Shown here piece after piece: positions 1 to 26,784 of a DNA stretch of 46,876 nt. The stretch lies in contig JAFTWC010000079.1 of NCBI GenBank assembly GCA_017465475.1, positions 1 through 46,876 on the forward strand, in the 5' to 3' direction. Under the pieces are notes generated by a model. The model made no database searches. It was not told the origin of the DNA and was given only the letters and a program-made list of their open reading frames with translations. The first letter of the stretch is position 1. Every line of letters starts with the position of its first letter. Source of the stretch: Lachnospiraceae bacterium (GTDB lineage: Bacteria > Bacillota > Clostridia > Lachnospirales > Lachnospiraceae). The position numbers and the translations under genes are program-made.

Positions 1-99
1 AAACTGTATAATCGTAGGGACTATAACAACTTTCCTATGAGACCCCTGGGATGGAAAACTCCCAGTCAGGTACTAAGGGAATATCGTATGTCAGTGTAA
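1..99 (+). CDS. C-terminal fragment of a DDE integrase-type transposase (cut by window edge)
   Basis: Frame 1 is open from the window edge to a TAA at 97-99 and encodes 32 residues. They include YNNFPMRPLGWKTP, which resembles the end of the DDE integrase core in IS3/IS481-like transposases, where a YN..RPH..LG.KTP segment closes the catalytic domain. The rest of the gene lies outside the window, so family and intactness cannot be judged. The element end just downstream supports a mobile-element origin. Confidence 0.65.
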   Translation, partial: KLYNRRDYNNFPMRPLGWKTPSQVLREYRMSV

Positions 100-120
100 C
101 AAATGTTTGACAAACCTACA
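97..120 (+). mobile_element. Putative right end of an insertion sequence
   Basis: Immediately after the transposase stop, the bases up to 120 read in reverse complement as TGTAGGTTTGTCAAAC followed by ATTTGTTA. A terminal TG and a TGTCAAA-like inner part are typical of IS3-group ends. The left end is outside the window, so the inverted repeat and target duplication cannot be confirmed. Confidence 0.45.
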
Positions 121-2048: not shown

Positions 2049-4958
2049 TTACTTATTCTTTCCTTTCATCATGCTAATGACGGTTCCCGCTCCGCCGACA
2101 AGTATAAGCATCGCAACTACGATAATAATCACTATAATCTTTCCATTGTCCTCCGGCTCCTTCTCCTCTGCGGAAGTCTCCGCATCCCCGGATTCTTGCG
2201 GACTCCGGGTCGGTGTCGCAGTAGGTTCCTGTACCTGTGATTCCGGCGATTCCGGTTTCATCGTAGGTGACACTGCTGCGGTCGTTTTCGGTGTTTCTGT
2301 CGGCACCGGAGTTGCCGTTGACTTCGGCACTTCTGTCGGCACCGGAGTTGCCGTTGACTTCGGCAGTTCTGTCGGAGCCGGGGTTGCCGTCGGTTTCGGG
2401 GCTTCCGTCGGCACCGGTGCAAGCATATCCACCCAACTTACACTTCCTTCATTCGCAAGTCGGTTCATTGCTTCTCTTGTCCAGTCACCGCGATTTCCCC
2501 AATAATATGCAGTTCCGAAAAACTGATGTAACGGCACATCCCCCGATGTAGCCGGCGGTGCTCCTTCGAAGAAAACCTTTTCCAACCCGTTCCATCCAAA
2601 GGCAACACTTTCCATTTTCGTAATCGACTTAGGTATCGTCACTTCCCTTAAGGATGTACATTCAGCAAAAGCTAATTCACAAATGGTTGTAACACCCTCT
2701 GAAAATACAACCGATTCCAATCCGGTGCATCCGTAAAACATTCCTTTTTCAACTGTTTTCAGCGTTCCCGGAATCACTACCTTCTCCAATGATTTACAGT
2801 CTGAAAAAGCATATTCTCCGACCTTTTCCAAATCTCCCTGCCATTCAACACTCTTTAAGCTGACACAGGTTGCAAAAGCACGATTACCAAGCTTCCTTAC
2901 CTTCTCTCCCAATACAAGTTTTTCAAGACACCGGCACTCAATAAACATCTCATCTACAATCTCCGCCGGCGAATTATAAATCAATTCCCTTACATTACAT
3001 AATCTAAAACACCAGTATCCGACTTCAGTGACACTTTCCGGTACTATTAATGATACATTTTTTTTGTATGAAAACGCAGCCTGAAACGCATAATCTCCCA
3101 GTTTTTTTACGGTACCCGGAAGAACCAGCTTCTCAAGTCCCGTACATTCCATAAAAGCTCCGTAGCCGATTTCTTCAATGCCTTCATACATTACTACCTC
3201 TCGAAGTTTTTCACTTCTCCAGAAGGTTTCTCTCTCAATCTTCTTCATTTTCTTACCAAGGACTACCCGCTCAAGATTATAACACATACGGAAAGCCCCT
3301 TCGCCGACGTATTCCACTCCTTCCGGTAAACTCACTTCCTTTAATGTATTACATCCTTCAAATGCCGAGGCTCCCACGGAAGTAAGTCCCTTTGGCAGGG
3401 ACACGCTCTTTAACCGGTCACAATAACAAAAAGCTCTGTCACCCAATATCGTTACGCTATCCGGAATCACCACTTCCTCTAATGCCGGGCAATAGGCAAA
3501 CGCATCCATCCCAATTTCGGTAACACCCTCTGCGATTACAACCTTTTTAATAAATCCCTTCCATTCCTGCCAGTACGGAAACTCAATTTTTCCTGCACCG
3601 CCCACTGTAAGAATGCCCTCCTTGGACAACTCCCATTGCATTCCGTCAGCACCAACTCCGTTTGCTGCCACGTCTCCCGTCTGTGGCAATGTTTTCCCGT
3701 AAGAGGTAAAAGATACCGGGTATTCTGCCCAGAATTCTTCCGTATGATACTGCGGGTCTTCCCAATGGGTCAGTCCTGCAAGCGCCCGAAACTCCGACAA
3801 TCCGGTTAAGAAATGCAAATAAGTTTCATTTCCCGCATCATTCGTTGCATCTACGCAATAGTACTTCCCGTCTAATTTCACGATATTCCATTCGTGAGCA
3901 CCTACCGTACCGGATACCGTTCTTGCATCAATACCTGCTTCCATCATCATCCGGTATACCAAATCTCCGTATCCGTCACAAATTGCATTCCCTGTCTTAA
4001 GCGCCCAATATGCATTCACAAGTTCATCCGTATGAGAGTTATTCCACTCCGGATTATAGATTTCAAATGCATAAGACACGTTATCACAGATGTATTTATA
4101 AATAGCACAAATCTTTTCATAATCTGTCATCGTATCGATTTTCAGTTTTTTAAAGATACGATGAATCTCTTCCGTTAACCATTGCTCCTGTTCCGCATTA
4201 GATGCATAGTTCGGAACCCAGTTCTTTACCGTAACATAATGAATCTTTCCGTCATAAATTTCTTCATCCTGGTAACTGCCTGTCCATGTGCTTCGTAAGA
4301 TATCTCCTTCCGTTGCCTTTCCGGTATGCTTACAAATCTCTTCAAACAAAGCAGTATGCGCTTCCCCTACCTGTAACTCTTTTTCTATCTCATAGTAATA
4401 ACGTACTTCCATCCCTATATTCCGTGCTACCAGATGTTCTCTGATATACGTGGCAGCTTCTTCTATAGACAAATATTCTGCTCCGTCTTTTGTCAGATGC
4501 TTTTCTTCCTTGTACCATGTCGGTTTCTTGTGACCGCAAACGGTACATTCCCCACCGGAATAGGTATGTAACACCTTTTCCGACAATACACCGCAATCAC
4601 ACACCTGCCAGTGATATAATTCATCTTGTCCGGTAACGGAAAAATCATGCTTTAATTCTCTTACATACCCGCAATAATAGCATTTCTTATCCGTTTCTAA
4701 TGCATACCAGTGTTTCCGGTAATCCCAAACCTTCCCACATTCACACTTTTTCCACGAATAATTCGCATCATAGCAAACCGTATCGTAATTGTGATCTGTC
4801 ACCCTGTATTTCTCGCACACATTACACTTGTGATCACATGCATAATCATACACATGCTGCGTGCAATCTGCCGCCCGGGCAATCTCTGCTTTTCCGGAGA
4901 ATAACACCGCAAAAGCAACTGCTACTGCTACCACGAAAAAACGACGCATTTTCTTCAT
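2049..4958 (-). CDS. BspA-like LRR surface protein with transglutaminase-like domain
   Basis: This 969-residue protein is probably exported and membrane-anchored. Visible in order: a signal peptide (about 1-29); a Cys-rich region (about 31-150) with repeated CxxC pairs such as CNVC, CYYC and CTVCGHKK; a transglutaminase-like domain with Cys in AICDGYG (near 326), His in GAHEWN (near 354) and Asp in VDATND (near 371); a run of about ten BspA-type leucine-rich repeats (about 450-800); a PTxTP-rich linker (850-910); and a final hydrophobic segment followed by Lys residues. The start is the third in-frame ATG, 8 nt from GGAGGG. The full Cys-His-Asp triad suggests an active thiol enzyme, perhaps a protease or crosslinker, while the LRRs are likely adhesive. 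The substrate is unknown. Confidence 0.85.
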   Translation of the reverse strand: MKKMRRFFVVAVAVAFAVLFSGKAEIARAADCTQHVYDYACDHKCNVCEKYRVTDHNYDTVCYDANYSWKKCECGKVWDYRKHWYALETDKKCYYCGYVRELKHDFSVTGQDELYHWQVCDCGVLSEKVLHTYSGGECTVCGHKKPTWYKEEKHLTKDGAEYLSIEEAATYIREHLVARNIGMEVRYYYEIEKELQVGEAHTALFEEICKHTGKATEGDILRSTWTGSYQDEEIYDGKIHYVTVKNWVPNYASNAEQEQWLTEEIHRIFKKLKIDTMTDYEKICAIYKYICDNVSYAFEIYNPEWNNSHTDELVNAYWALKTGNAICDGYGDLVYRMMMEAGIDARTVSGTVGAHEWNIVKLDGKYYCVDATNDAGNETYLHFLTGLSEFRALAGLTHWEDPQYHTEEFWAEYPVSFTSYGKTLPQTGDVAANGVGADGMQWELSKEGILTVGGAGKIEFPYWQEWKGFIKKVVIAEGVTEIGMDAFAYCPALEEVVIPDSVTILGDRAFCYCDRLKSVSLPKGLTSVGASAFEGCNTLKEVSLPEGVEYVGEGAFRMCYNLERVVLGKKMKKIERETFWRSEKLREVVMYEGIEEIGYGAFMECTGLEKLVLPGTVKKLGDYAFQAAFSYKKNVSLIVPESVTEVGYWCFRLCNVRELIYNSPAEIVDEMFIECRCLEKLVLGEKVRKLGNRAFATCVSLKSVEWQGDLEKVGEYAFSDCKSLEKVVIPGTLKTVEKGMFYGCTGLESVVFSEGVTTICELAFAECTSLREVTIPKSITKMESVAFGWNGLEKVFFEGAPPATSGDVPLHQFFGTAYYWGNRGDWTREAMNRLANEGSVSWVDMLAPVPTEAPKPTATPAPTELPKSTATPVPTEVPKSTATPVPTETPKTTAAVSPTMKPESPESQVQEPTATPTRSPQESGDAETSAEEKEPEDNGKIIVIIIVVAMLILVGGAGTVISMMKGKNK

Positions 4959-5054
4959 TTGCATACCCTCCATACCTTCAATATTCTTGCTACATTTCCT
5001 TGATAATAGGGAGTTTAACCCCTTGATGTTCCCCCTCTTTTTTAGTTTATCACA

Positions 5055-5861
5055 CTAAAAATAATGTAGCAACATCTTTTCCACAATTCGCATGTCCAGC
5101 GGATTCTCTGATGTTTCAAAGGTGCACAAAAAGTTATCTCCGAACCAAAATCCGTTTTCCTGATACTTTGCTATCTTCTTTATTGCTTTTGCGCTGTACT
5201 CCGGATAATCCATGATACCAAAATGCTCAAAATAGATAGTCTTTCGTTTTCTTTTATGTAACAACGCAAAGTCCGGGTACATCCGACTCCCGTCCGCAAG
5301 TTCCAATTCCGGCTCATAAATATACGGAATCCCCATCCGTAAAAAACCGTCTGCCAGAATTTTCTCTGATTTAGACCGTACACATTCTCCGGCTTCTGTG
5401 TAGAACTCGACCTCTTTCGGGAATTCATTTGTATTTCCTCGCATTTTTTCTTTCCACTTATTCACAAAAGTTTCTTCTGTTTCAATATAAGGAATTACCA
5501 ACTCTTTTTTCTCTTCCGGTAGCTTTTCAAAGATTGCTTCTATATCATTCTCCTGATACTCCTTCAGAAAAACAGAGATTGCATCTACTCTCTTCTTCGC
5601 ACACTCCAATACTTCAAATTCATATTGTTTTTGTGCCAGGCGTTGTACAAGTTTCAATTCTTTTTTTGGCAAATATCTCCCGTTCTTTCCTTTTTCTCTA
5701 TCGCCTTCTATGTAATGATAATACTGCGGATATCTGCCTCTTGCTTTCATTGTCACAAGACTTCCTTCCGGTGCTTTTGAAATTTCTTTCTCAATCTTTG
5801 GCATAAGCTTTACTAAATTATCTCTTTCCTGTTCTAATTCAAACCTACTTTCTCTGTCCAT
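5055..5861 (-). CDS. Uncharacterised protein with PD-(D/E)XK-like C-terminal domain
   Basis: The 268-residue protein has a charged helical N-terminal half (coiled-coil-like, about 1-25 and 65-120) with a basic GRYPQYYHYIEG segment (42-53). Its C-terminal half resembles a PD-(D/E)XK nuclease core: Glu166 in SEKILADGF, Asp197 in YPDFALL, and YFEHFG (210-215) on the next predicted strand, where a canonical enzyme would have ExK. I recall similar hypothetical proteins in Lachnospiraceae, but no function. The start at 5861 follows a GGGGTG sequence; the upstream in-frame ATG at 5894 lacks a ribosome site and falls in the repeat array. It is the first gene downstream of the array on the minus strand, 34 nt away, so a functional link is possible but unproven. 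Confidence 0.65.
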   Translation of the reverse strand: MDRESRFELEQERDNLVKLMPKIEKEISKAPEGSLVTMKARGRYPQYYHYIEGDREKGKNGRYLPKKELKLVQRLAQKQYEFEVLECAKKRVDAISVFLKEYQENDIEAIFEKLPEEKKELVIPYIETEETFVNKWKEKMRGNTNEFPKEVEFYTEAGECVRSKSEKILADGFLRMGIPYIYEPELELADGSRMYPDFALLHKRKRKTIYFEHFGIMDYPEYSAKAIKKIAKYQENGFWFGDNFLCTFETSENPLDMRIVEKMLLHYF

Positions 5862-5895: not shown

Positions 5896-6436
5896 TGCCA
5901 TGAGCATCTACCTTTCTTTATTTCTCATGGCACGTTCAAACCTCTCCTTCTCTTTATTACCATGAAATCCTATCTTGCAACTCTTCTCATGGCACGTCCA
6001 AAATTTCCTTTCTCTTCTTTACCATGAAATGCCCTCTTTCAATTCTTCTCATGGTACGCACAATCTCCCCTTTCTTCTCTATTACCATGAAATACTATTA
6101 TCCCGAGCATCTTCATGGTACACTTTTACAACTACATCTTTACCGTTACCATGATAAAAACGTCCAGACCATCATCTCATGGTACTCTTCAAAAATCACC
6201 TTACTATCCTTACCATGATATCCCCTCCTCTCCTTCTTCCTCATGGCAATATCCGAAAACCTTCTTTTTTTCATACCATGAGAAAGCCATTTTGTAGAGT
6301 TCTCATGGCAATCCCCCCCACGCACTTTGTATGAGTACCATGAAGAAACCATGTTTACTCTCATATCATGGTAATCTAGCAACCACACTTTATATATGTA
6401 CCATGAAGAAACCATGTTTTCCCTCACATCATGGCA
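5896..6436. repeat. Inverted-motif array 1: nine TACCATGA / TCATGGTA pairs, 62-64 nt period
   Basis: Nine units alternate D = T(A/G)CCATGA with its reverse complement U = TCATGG(T/C)A. D starts: 5896, 5958, 6020, 6083, 6147, 6211, 6274, 6336, 6399. U starts: 5925, 5987, 6049, 6113, 6177, 6241, 6303, 6366, 6429. D to U is always 29-30 nt and U to next D always 33-34 nt, leaving spacers of 21-22 and 25-26 nt. Spacers are mostly unrelated in sequence and pyrimidine-rich on the plus strand. Units 8 and 9 are near-duplicates. The array lies between ilvE and the PD-(D/E)XK-like gene. It is not a CRISPR, since repeats are 8 nt and alternate in orientation, and it is not convincingly coding because unit length changes by 1-2 nt. 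Confidence 0.93.
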
Positions 6437-6599
6437 ACCTGTCGTCATATACTTAAAAATTTCCCGTGTTCCTAATATAATTCTTTCCCATAACCCCCGT
6501 TTTTTATCTACATGAGAATCAGCGCCCGAACCGGGCATAACAAGTGAATTTAACCAGAATCAATTACAAAGAAGTTCCCAATCGCCCTTGTATTATACT
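6437..6599. other. Spacer between array 1 and the ilvE 3' hairpin
   Basis: No gene is supported here. A small hairpin GCCCG-GTT-CGGGC occurs near 6525-6537. Just past the ilvE hairpin the minus strand contains TATAAT (6592-6597) without a recognisable -35 box. If array 1 is transcribed on the minus strand, this is where its leader or promoter would be. Confidence 0.4.
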
Positions 6600-6652: not shown

Positions 6653-7723
6653 TTACTTTACCTCAACTACCCAGCCCTTGCTCTCCTTAATCTTGCCAAG
6701 CTGGATACCGGTAATGGTATCATACAGCTTCTGGCTGTACTCACCGATGGAACCGTCCTTAATCTGCATTACGCGGTCACCGAAACGAAGTGCACCTACC
6801 GGAGAAATAACTGCTGCGGTACCGGTACCGAATACTTCCTCTAAAGTACCTGCCTCGTAAGCGTCCACCAGCTCCTGTGCAGATACGCGACGTTCCTCAA
6901 CAGGAAGTCCCCATTCCTTACAAAGCTCAATAACAGAGTTTCTGGTGATACCCGGTAAAATACTGCCGTTTAACATCGGGGTTACGATGGTGCCGTTAAT
7001 CTTAAAGAAGATGGTCATTGCACCTACTTCTTCGATATACTTACGCTCTACACCGTCAAGCCACAATACCTGGGAGTAGCCAGCATCATGTGCCTTCATC
7101 TGAGCTGCCATGGAAGCTACATAGTTACCACCGGTCTTTGCCTCACCGATACCGCCCTTTACGGCTCTTACGTAATCATCCTCAATCCAAATCTTAACCG
7201 GGTTAAGACCTTCCGGATAGTACGGACCAACCGGAGAAAGAATGATAATGAACTGATAGGTATCGGACGGACGCACACCAAGGAACGGGTCGGTTGCAAT
7301 GATGAACGGACGAATGTACAGAGAAGTACCCGGCTTATTCGGAACCCATGCTTCATCTACCTTAACCACAGCCTTTACAGCCTCCACGAAATCTTCAATC
7401 GGAAGCTCCGGAATGCACAGTCTCTTGTTGGTGTTGTTGGTACGCTTTGCATTCATGTCCGGACGGAACAAAAGCACTCTGCCGTCATCTGCACGGTAAG
7501 CCTTTAAGCCCTCGAACATTTCCTGACCGTAATGGAATACCATTGCAGACGGCTCGAGAACGATCGGCTGATACGGTACGACACGCGGATCAAACCAGCC
7601 CTTGCCGGTCTCATAATTCATAATAAACATGTGATCGGTAAAAATAGTACCGAACTTTAACGGGTCCTCCGGAGTCGGAAGCGGCTTCGGATTAGTAGTC
7701 TTCTCAATTCTGATGTTTAACAT
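6653..7723 (-). CDS. ilvE: Branched-chain amino acid aminotransferase
   Basis: The 356-residue protein is a class IV PLP aminotransferase that interconverts Val, Leu and Ile with their 2-oxo acids using glutamate/2-oxoglutarate. Family signatures include FHYGQEMFEGLKAYR near the N-terminus, the PLP-lysine region GGIGEAKTGGNYVAS, the substrate loop YIEEVGAMTIFF and the phosphate-binding GSILPGITRNSVIEL. Length fits the larger BCAT group. The longer open frame begins upstream, but the ATG at 7723 has AGGAGG about 8 nt away and gives the usual N-terminus MLNIRIEKT. It sits 35 bp downstream of folA and is probably co-transcribed with it. Confidence 0.96.
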   Translation of the reverse strand: MLNIRIEKTTNPKPLPTPEDPLKFGTIFTDHMFIMNYETGKGWFDPRVVPYQPIVLEPSAMVFHYGQEMFEGLKAYRADDGRVLLFRPDMNAKRTNNTNKRLCIPELPIEDFVEAVKAVVKVDEAWVPNKPGTSLYIRPFIIATDPFLGVRPSDTYQFIIILSPVGPYYPEGLNPVKIWIEDDYVRAVKGGIGEAKTGGNYVASMAAQMKAHDAGYSQVLWLDGVERKYIEEVGAMTIFFKINGTIVTPMLNGSILPGITRNSVIELCKEWGLPVEERRVSAQELVDAYEAGTLEEVFGTGTAAVISPVGALRFGDRVMQIKDGSIGEYSQKLYDTITGIQLGKIKESKGWVVEVK

Positions 7724-7758
7724 AATAACATCCTCCTTCTTATATTCATTTTCTTTCA

Positions 7759-8265
7759 TTAACTGACCCTCTTTTTGCGGACGTAACGGCAACGCTCATA
7801 AATCAGATCATAATAGGTCTGCTCATCAGAAACATCACTAAGCTCCCAATCCGGGTCTTTGTCCAAATTCAGGAAATACGTATCCGCATCATATTCATAA
7901 TCAATCTTTGTAATAAAGGCTTCATCGCAGTACGGCAAAAACTGCTCAAACACCGATGCCCCGCCAATGACATACACCTGATCGGTAGGGTACTGTGAGA
8001 TAACTTCCATTGCCTCGTCGAAACTGTGCACCACCGTCACATCGCTTAACTTCAAATCCTTCTTCTTCGTTAAGATGATGTTATTGCGGTCACGAGGCGG
8101 TTGTCCGGCGGAAAACTCCTCCTGTACACAACGTCCCATTACCACCGTCTTATACATGGTCTCAAAGCGGAAAAACTTCTCATCCGTAGGAATACGAACC
8201 AGTCGTCCTCCGTTCTTTCCGATGGCCCAATTGTTATCTACGGTCGCAATCAGTTTCATCTGCAT
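7759..8265 (-). CDS. folA: Dihydrofolate reductase
   Basis: The 168-residue protein reduces dihydrofolate to tetrahydrofolate with NADPH in one-carbon metabolism. Signatures are the N-terminal MKLIATVDNNWAIGKNG, the active-site acidic residue in IPTDEKFFR, the NADPH-binding VVMGRCVQEEF (relatives: MGRKTWES), and YVIGGASVFEQFLPYCDEAFITKI. Length is normal for chromosomal DHFR. Two in-frame starts are possible, ATG at 8265 or at 8259; an AAAGG lies 4 or 10 nt upstream respectively, so the choice is uncertain. It is the first gene of a folA-ilvE unit with its own promoter just after valS. Confidence 0.95.
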   Translation of the reverse strand: MQMKLIATVDNNWAIGKNGGRLVRIPTDEKFFRFETMYKTVVMGRCVQEEFSAGQPPRDRNNIILTKKKDLKLSDVTVVHSFDEAMEVISQYPTDQVYVIGGASVFEQFLPYCDEAFITKIDYEYDADTYFLNLDKDPDWELSDVSDEQTYYDLIYERCRYVRKKRVS

Positions 8266-26496: not shown

Positions 26497-26601
26497 GTGA
26501 AGGCAAAGTGAGCATGCGAGTAAATCGCGGGAACTTGTTCACAAGCGATTACACAGTCATGCGAACGCGCCCACGACGTAATGACCGCAGGTCACGGAGT
26601 T
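26497..26601 (+). repeat. 105-bp direct repeat, copy 1 (element B)
   Basis: This copy begins GTGAAGGCAAAGTGAGCATG and ends GGTCACGGAGTT. It contains nested stems: GCATG/CATGC outside, AATCGC/GCGATT inside, GAAC-TT-GTTC within that, and a TGACC-GCA-GGTCA hairpin. It differs from copy 2 at five positions. GCAAAGTGAGCATG and CATGCGAACGCGCCC are also present, inverted, in element A. Confidence 0.92.
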
Positions 26602-26706
26602 GTGAAGGCAAAGTGAGCATGCGGGTAAATCGCGGGAACTTGTTCCCAAGCGATTACACAGTCATGCGAACGCACCCACGACGTAGTGACCACAGGTCAC
26701 GGAGTT
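26602..26706 (+). repeat. 105-bp direct repeat, copy 2 (element B)
   Basis: It directly abuts copy 1. Two of its five substitutions lengthen stems: GGGAAC-TT-GTTCCC becomes a perfect 6-bp pair, and GTGACC-ACA-GGTCAC becomes perfect. Duplication was probably tandem and fairly recent. Confidence 0.92.
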
Positions 26707-26784
26707 GGTGATGCGCATTGCCACCCGAAAAAGCACTCGGCTTACTCTACAATTTTACTTAAATTTACTTAAAGGAGAGAAACT

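Follow-up and report, generated by a model that had tools for sequence, protein, structure and literature searches.

What might a run of short, alternately inverted motifs, held at almost constant distance, be doing just upstream of a small gene in the genome of a gut Lachnospiraceae bacterium? The array in question occupies positions 5896..6436, without assigned strand, of the window (i.e. the whole 46,876-nucleotide stretch of DNA analysed here), which belongs to an 81-contig Lachnospiraceae MAG (G000). The first-pass annotation had put it forward as a candidate undescribed system. Our results suggest that it does lead to what looks like one, an undescribed two-part genetic system made up of the array and a gene of the P0001 family.

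Sites and spacing of the window array

The 8-mers TRCCATGA and TCATGGYA alternate strictly over 5896–6436, and all 18 sites (nine pairs) were found where they had been annotated: 12 read exactly TACCATGA/TCATGGTA and six read TGCCATGA/TCATGGCA. With up to one mismatch allowed, the window contains 54 matches to the 8-mer, against a mean of 34.4 and a largest value of 46 in 100 shuffles (0/100 reaching 54). Starts of the 8-mers lie 29–30 or 33–34 nt apart and the spacers between them measure 21–26 nt, as first described. The two-step spacing read from these distances, however, is an artefact of the way the 8-mer was cut, because the 8-mer is asymmetric and both of its orientations were counted; neighbouring copies of the 6-bp core TACCAT/ATGGTA, the part that sister species retain, follow each other at 31 or 32 bp in either direction.

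Over the arrays of seven genomes, the core step has a mean of 31.37 and a standard deviation of 0.54 (n = 297 regular steps), a regularity that is partly by construction because the chaining script seeded arrays only from alternating partners 30–33 bp apart. A raw scan of nine own-genome arrays without this rule yields the same 31–32 bp regularity. Three turns of B-DNA measure 31.4 bp. The remark that the spacing is close to three DNA turns, and the suggestion of a putative array of protein sites, are the best-supported parts of the earlier reading. Elsewhere in the window, a 105-bp sequence is present as a tandem duplicate at 26497–26707 (95% matching), and the 974-aa product encoded at 2049–4973 has transglutaminase-like and BspA-type leucine-rich repeat matches.

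Distribution, inheritance and form of the arrays

On the plus strand of the whole own genome, the pair pattern TRCCATGA-N21..26-TCATGGYA has 56 matches, compared with 0 for the reversed control pattern, and the 50 of these 56 that were listed all fall within nine arrays. A tenth array, found via a cluster of single sites, has TACCATTG sites facing one way and TACCATGA sites facing the other. The own genome holds ten intergenic array loci including the window's; the nine others are solo arrays, of which eight use the same motif as the gene-linked array and the ninth is mixed. A single-site search with TACCATGANAA gave 47 places (34 in the nine arrays, four in the tenth and nine scattered) and its reversed control 18, so that isolated operator sites are rejected. 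The arrays occupy gaps between unrelated housekeeping genes, at positions some of which are conserved across species. No common neighbour gene was seen at the solo arrays, and no P0001-type gene was seen beside any of them, several ending at contig edges.

Arrays of at least four sites are present in six of the ten searched genomes of the genus; G004, G006 and G008 stay at the control level with a single core pair each, and G002 lacks even that. Relatives that carry the same arrays bear the title Lachnospiraceae; MAGs from water-buffalo cecum and sheep colon are among them. Most arrays of G001 and G009 read TACCATT(G), G005 has both kinds, and core-based chaining missed at least one further array of G007 (C10, L106). 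In a 397-genome sample of the family, the core pattern occurs in two genomes of the genus and as a single match elsewhere, probably by chance; the reversed control is void for this sample since the core pattern reads identically backwards. In viruses, the strict pattern gives 0 stretches and the core pattern 12, which amount to no array because each holds a single match.

Some contig ends carry other sequences. The array L010 (C48 of the own genome, at a contig end) is cut by an apparent IS3-type insertion, the contig ends at L147 and L116 have an insertion-like sequence in common (94% over 133 bp), and the start of the left flank of the window (1–120) matches the start of L116 (93% over 120 bp). 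An insertion sequence probably breaks the assembly at the L147 and L116 contig ends and at the window start.

Flanking sequences identify six of the ten own loci (ilvE, rplA, pheT, purL, L011 and L012) as orthologous between species. In aligned orthologous arrays, the sites are nearly unchanged and spacer sequence drifts at almost constant length, with occasional single-base indels; copy number changes between species in 63-bp units. The annotation had named two observations that would speak against it, loosely spaced motifs without a period in other strains and codon-by-codon conservation of the spacers. Related species keep the period, and a coding reading is rejected in view of single-base indels between orthologous spacers, although overlapping ORFs exist at the array (e.g. 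6146–6538, minus strand). Its option of a guide array has not survived: the spacers are inherited vertically, copy number changes in 63-bp units, and searches against phages and plasmids returned only short, weak, chance-like matches (5% of the query for phages and, among the matches listed, 9% for plasmids). Guide arrays are therefore unsupported and this reading is rejected.

G000, G003, G005 and G007 carry the rplA array, whereas G001, G002, G004, G006, G008 and G009 lack it; the distribution therefore indicates clade-wise gain or loss of an array long kept in place. No target-site duplication was seen in this gap, the single one compared by eye. The rplA–rplJ gap (L113, L115, L120 and L123) contains an array, a long inverted repeat or other repeats depending on the congener, in the manner of a hot spot.

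A common form of an array is three pairs, a 73–75 bp gap and three more pairs; elsewhere the gap measures 43, 63 or 84 bp or is absent. The six distinct gap lengths (43, 63, 73, 74, 75 and 84) are multiples of 10.47 (P = 3e-4; P = 1e-3 by four classes) and not of 31.4, with the L036 gap taken as 84 after an odd site at 1049 was dropped and with L005, which has an odd extra site, left out. Gaps within TACCAT arrays are whole helical turns.

Site subtypes are arranged as mirror images in many arrays. In eight gapped loci pooled, the letter preceding the sites that read towards the centre is T in 37, G in three and A in seven cases, while sites reading away from it are preceded by G in 25, T in 18 and A in five (Fisher P = 7e-7). 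In the window array, low-side sites read T> <g and high-side sites G> <t (letter before TACCAT), with one A>; the best-fit mirror centre falls after site 11, a fit reached by 0/500 shuffles, and the inferred centre is at 6211..6248 (no strand), the switch lying within the pair 6211/6241. Among the 12 ungapped arrays tested, five support a mirror centre (≤12/500 shuffles) and represent two loci, ilvE (the window's array, L034 and L037) and purL (L005 and L108); L040 has one polarity throughout, and six other ungapped arrays show no mirror support. Mirror-image halves are thus common but not universal.

The adjacent gene and the arrays of its relatives

The presumed partner gene, P0001 (5055..5894, minus strand), codes for 279 aa with an N-terminal part and a C-terminal nuclease-like domain. 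Its ORF begins 2 bp from the array, the likelier start codon being at 5861, 35 bp away. The conserved neighbour ilvE (branched-chain aminotransferase, 6653..7792, minus strand) serves as synteny anchor for this array in the congeners G001, G003, G005, G007 and G009. Pfam and NCBIfam profiles give no match to P0001 at 0.001; their best sub-threshold match is 5-formyltetrahydrofolate cyclo-ligase (0.003 and 0.0015) over the middle part, and no transposase matches in Pfam up to E = 5. Residues 158–274 match PADLOC PDC-S68 (E = 3e-22), and the C-terminus also matches HEAT_CxxC_PDDEXK (4e-4) and a phage endonuclease family (8e-6). PD-(D/E)XK nucleases have a conserved E...PD...ExK core. In 11 sequences, E177, P207-D208-F209, E223 and K240 are invariant, while the ExK position reads E-H (E223-H224 invariant), the canonical lysine not being in place. 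The predicted structure has a mean pLDDT of 39.9, which makes the fold model unusable, and the best match to solved structures (E 0.14) is not convincing. Plasmid-borne AAA-ATPase or RecD-like proteins contain domains similar to the C-terminus. P0001 evolves faster than its neighbour ilvE (83% vs 99% identity between G000 and G007).

Relatives of P0001 are present in 12 of the 31 genomes searched. In viral contigs, 29 pattern matches yielded no confirmed relative, and three contigs labelled phage have no array upstream of their P0001-like match, which in two of the three covers the C-terminal part only. Clear periodic arrays were found in 13 of 23 regions upstream of relatives and a borderline one in another (L094); nine relatives, five of them in the distant genome G043, have no clear array. 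Two fragments of the broken G003 copy, which also has an array (L037), were matched but are not among the 23 regions. The 13 clear arrays correspond to nine independent loci because four are ilvE orthologs and two share a comEC-like locus. At the same self-match level (0.039, a threshold set after the relatives were seen), only two of 152 control upstream regions were found, one being a TACCAT array that slipped the filter, after nine upstream regions with TACCAT arrays or P0001-like genes had been removed beforehand. Downstream regions of the 23 relatives reach at most 0.038, and one 650-bp control stretch within the window reaches 0.146.

The unit of two inverted sites upstream of relatives measures 52–54, 62–64 or 72–73 bp (5, 6 or 7 turns). 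With L088 and L092 counted as a single locus and the four ilvE orthologs as another, unit lengths are multiples of 10.5 bp at P = 4e-5 for the seven loci without the TACCAT one, P = 1e-5 for eight loci and 0/400,000 draws for ten. As in helically phased protein-binding arrays, multiples of about 10.5 bp are kept even where the unit length has changed. The motifs (period in brackets) include CAGTTGTAA (53), AGGTGAA (73), GGCCCACGG (72), GTAGTACGTAA (64), TGACYGC (53) and others, and paralogs within G018 carry different ones (CAGTTGTAA, AGGTGAA and TTACTAGGGA). From these sequence comparisons, we conclude as our main new result that the window array exemplifies a gene-plus-array arrangement in which the helical rule is shared and the motif varies. 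P0001-family genes and helically quantised arrays very probably belong together.

The paralog beside a comEC-like gene (L014, L088 and L092) has motifs that are related but not the same, TTGGTA in G007 and TTRGTMGGG in G003, and has no array in G000. The borderline case (L094, G043) has GCATGC-containing sites with a period of about 54, 200–400 bp upstream of the P0001-like gene. In the own genome, L008 (C17, at a contig end) holds at 6716–6928, directly after a TACCATGA array, a second array with a period of 53 and the motif CCCAACGA/TCGTTGGG. Since this motif resembles those upstream of the paralogs L088 and L092, their type of system may have solo arrays too.

We then compared the two protein halves with the motif. 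G000 and G007 have the same motif, and P0001 is 83% identical in its N-terminal and 88% in its C-terminal part. Against G005, whose gene-linked array reads TACCATT, the values are 53% and 92%; against G009, whose gene-linked array keeps little beyond TACCAT, they are 46% and 62%. The link between motif and N-terminus rests mainly on G005, because both halves differ in G009. In G003, which has arrays, the P0001 copy at the ilvE locus reads as a broken gene, and sites that depart from the TRCCATGA consensus number 3/28, compared with 3/120 in G000 (without L147) and 2/88 in G007, a weak trend. In G001 (97% complete), three small arrays were found, one of them truncated at a contig end, and no P0001 relative. 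Arrays in G001, and in G003 with its broken gene, can be products of decay after loss of P0001, but they leave the link imperfect. The TACCATGA array at rplA in G005 (L116) has four sites and stops at the insertion-like sequence near a contig edge; it is not counted as evidence of decay because that insertion leaves its length undefined.

A candidate two-part system and its rivals

We lean towards the P0001 protein binding the array. It would do so cooperatively, on one face of the helix, probably via its faster-evolving N-terminal part, so that the gene-linked array would be the operator and home site of the protein. Solo arrays may be extra binding sites seeded by copying, in the REP/RAYT manner with unrelated parts, and bound arrays could serve chromosome organization, regulation or nuclease storage, or be selfish. 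With the window array as the DNA half and the adjacent nuclease-family gene as the protein half, we regard the full mechanism as evenly balanced between right and wrong. In its most far-reaching form the proposal is tentative, and we judge it slightly more doubtful than not: a new class of prokaryotic two-part element with a small nuclease-family protein, lineage-specific site reading by the N-terminus, a helix-quantised home-operator array (5, 6 or 7 turns per unit) and, in some lineages, solo arrays at about ten loci, which persist with the cognate protein and decay after its loss or a change in its specificity.

The arrays might instead work as a folded strand, in the form of transcribed tandem stem-loops (a 5′ UTR or read-through RNA) or ssDNA hairpins of the coding strand that a protein or ribonuclease recognizes; we consider this unlikely. 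The coding strand is indeed C-poor (10% C in the window array, 9% in L090 and 7% in L040) and many arrays are rich in purines on the strand sense to codirectional genes, yet L011, L117, L098 and L103 are exceptions and L009 and L107 near-neutral. Neighbour directions in the strand and mismatch tests were assigned by hand, with one neighbour known for L007 and L008. In 17 arrays, which were chosen for known neighbour direction and are not all independent, the non-Watson–Crick pairs of the core are 14 G-T, one A-C and three A-G. This excess of G-T over A-C (14 to 1) on the presumed coding strand speaks for the hairpin RNA mentioned in the first-pass annotation, but the purine-rich strand differs from the G-T strand in L011 and L012, and a C-A mismatch persists in L089. 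In 8/13 arrays the sense strand has a more negative MFE z than the antisense strand; in the other five, z does not mark the sense strand as the more structured one, and sense z lies above −1 in three arrays. Gene-linked arrays do lie just upstream of a start codon, and two motif positions show mild positive pairing (z 2.2 and 2.4), but there is no clear covariation beside the motif, where pairing is below expectation at −1, −2 and +10 (z −4.0, −3.2 and −3.0 in the TACCATGA genomes). Nor does the array match a described RNA family: in a scan of the window, only the T-box leader upstream of valS (RF00230, 10818–11077, minus strand), elsewhere than the array, reached the gathering score. Stems of 6–8 bp with loops of 21–26 nt are weak, and a single strand has no need of unit lengths and gaps that follow 10.5 bp. 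Because of the helical phasing and the lack of clear covariation beside the motif, duplex recognition is favoured. The strand asymmetry (purine-rich, C-poor coding strand; G-T 14:1) is unexplained by duplex sites alone; it could arise where a long untranslated leader has to avoid Rho-type termination, or from stem selection.

Some mobile elements carry multiple subterminal transposase sites, and the solo arrays could be remnants of such elements, their mirror-image halves being transposase-binding ends. The symmetry about a centre and the clade-specific presence (e.g. in the rplA–rplJ gap) would fit, as would an array in G009 (L102, 2535–3102) that lies within 32-bp terminal inverted repeats containing GGGKCTGTCGCAT and shares the array plus 103 bp of flank (95%) with L101. 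Against this, no similar inverted repeat was found within 400 bp around the other tested arrays (best 10–11 vs 23, some flanks being short), the repeat GGGNCTGTCGCAT is found apart from arrays too, as well as in the array-less G004, ends have no need of helical phase across the centre, and the rplA gap lacks a visible target-site duplication; we hold this origin to be quite improbable. BIME-2 is bound by gyrase, and the arrays might likewise bind an unrelated chromosome-organizing host protein, with the place upstream of the P0001 family merely a favoured site. Such a protein would account for arrays between unrelated housekeeping genes, at partly conserved positions, and for those that G001 keeps without P0001. 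One host protein, however, leaves unexplained that the motif differs between family members, even between the G018 paralogs, and the motif change in G005 accompanies divergence of the N-terminal and not the C-terminal part, so that we find this reading very doubtful.

Among described systems, the closest in logic is REP/RAYT. As described in PMC2817692, it combines short, alternating extragenic clusters, a fast-evolving gene adjacent to some and dispersed non-autonomous copies, and REPs are imperfect palindromes and RAYTs IS200/IS605-type transposases. As read from sequence, the present arrangement would share that logic, with a gene beside some clusters that evolves faster than its neighbour and with dispersed alternating copies, but not the parts: its sites are 6–11 nt long, mostly not palindromic and spaced by helical turns, and P0001 has no transposase match and resembles nuclease profiles. 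Lrp/AsnC operators have a centre spacing of two or three turns on one DNA face, cooperative binding and wrapping (PMC2995911). Spacing by whole turns is likewise seen here, putatively on one face, but with more sites, alternately inverted, with a nuclease-family gene instead of Lrp and with dispersed solo copies. TIGR-Tas arrays combine alternating 8–12-nt repeats with spacers of about 9 nt (at most 12), RNAs of 36 nt and a protein with a Nop domain (PMC12045711). The window array is also an alternating short-repeat array next to a gene, but its spacers are 21–26 nt long and inherited, and the neighbour is similar to nuclease domains and matches nothing in Pfam at 0.001.

The PADLOC candidate defence proteins PDC-S68 resemble P0001 in the C-terminal domain (residues 158–274), but their profiles span 1,202–1,273 positions, whereas P0001 has 279 aa, another N-terminus and an upstream array. 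Plasmid centromeres (sopC, parC) are regular arrays of repeated sites bound cooperatively; the arrays here, by contrast, are chromosomal and in ten copies, one beside a nuclease-family gene, and no partition genes were noticed among the partly annotated neighbours. CRISPR arrays consist of direct repeats of about 25–36 nt with unique spacers of foreign origin, whereas this one has 8-nt alternating inverted motifs, orthologous spacers and only weak foreign matches. The earlier view that the window array is neither CRISPR nor TIGR is thus confirmed. A partial coverage of the literature yielded no published description of the gene–array association, which is weak evidence of novelty.

If the proposed system is real, it would parallel REP-RAYT without being related to it, and comparative genomics alone would have sufficed to reveal that DNA-binding sites are helically phased. 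A single protein family would offer many natural protein–site pairs with diverging specificity, and these could be taken straight from the genome, gene and array being neighbours. With both a predicted protein and its predicted sites in hand, a puzzling repeat would become testable biochemistry.
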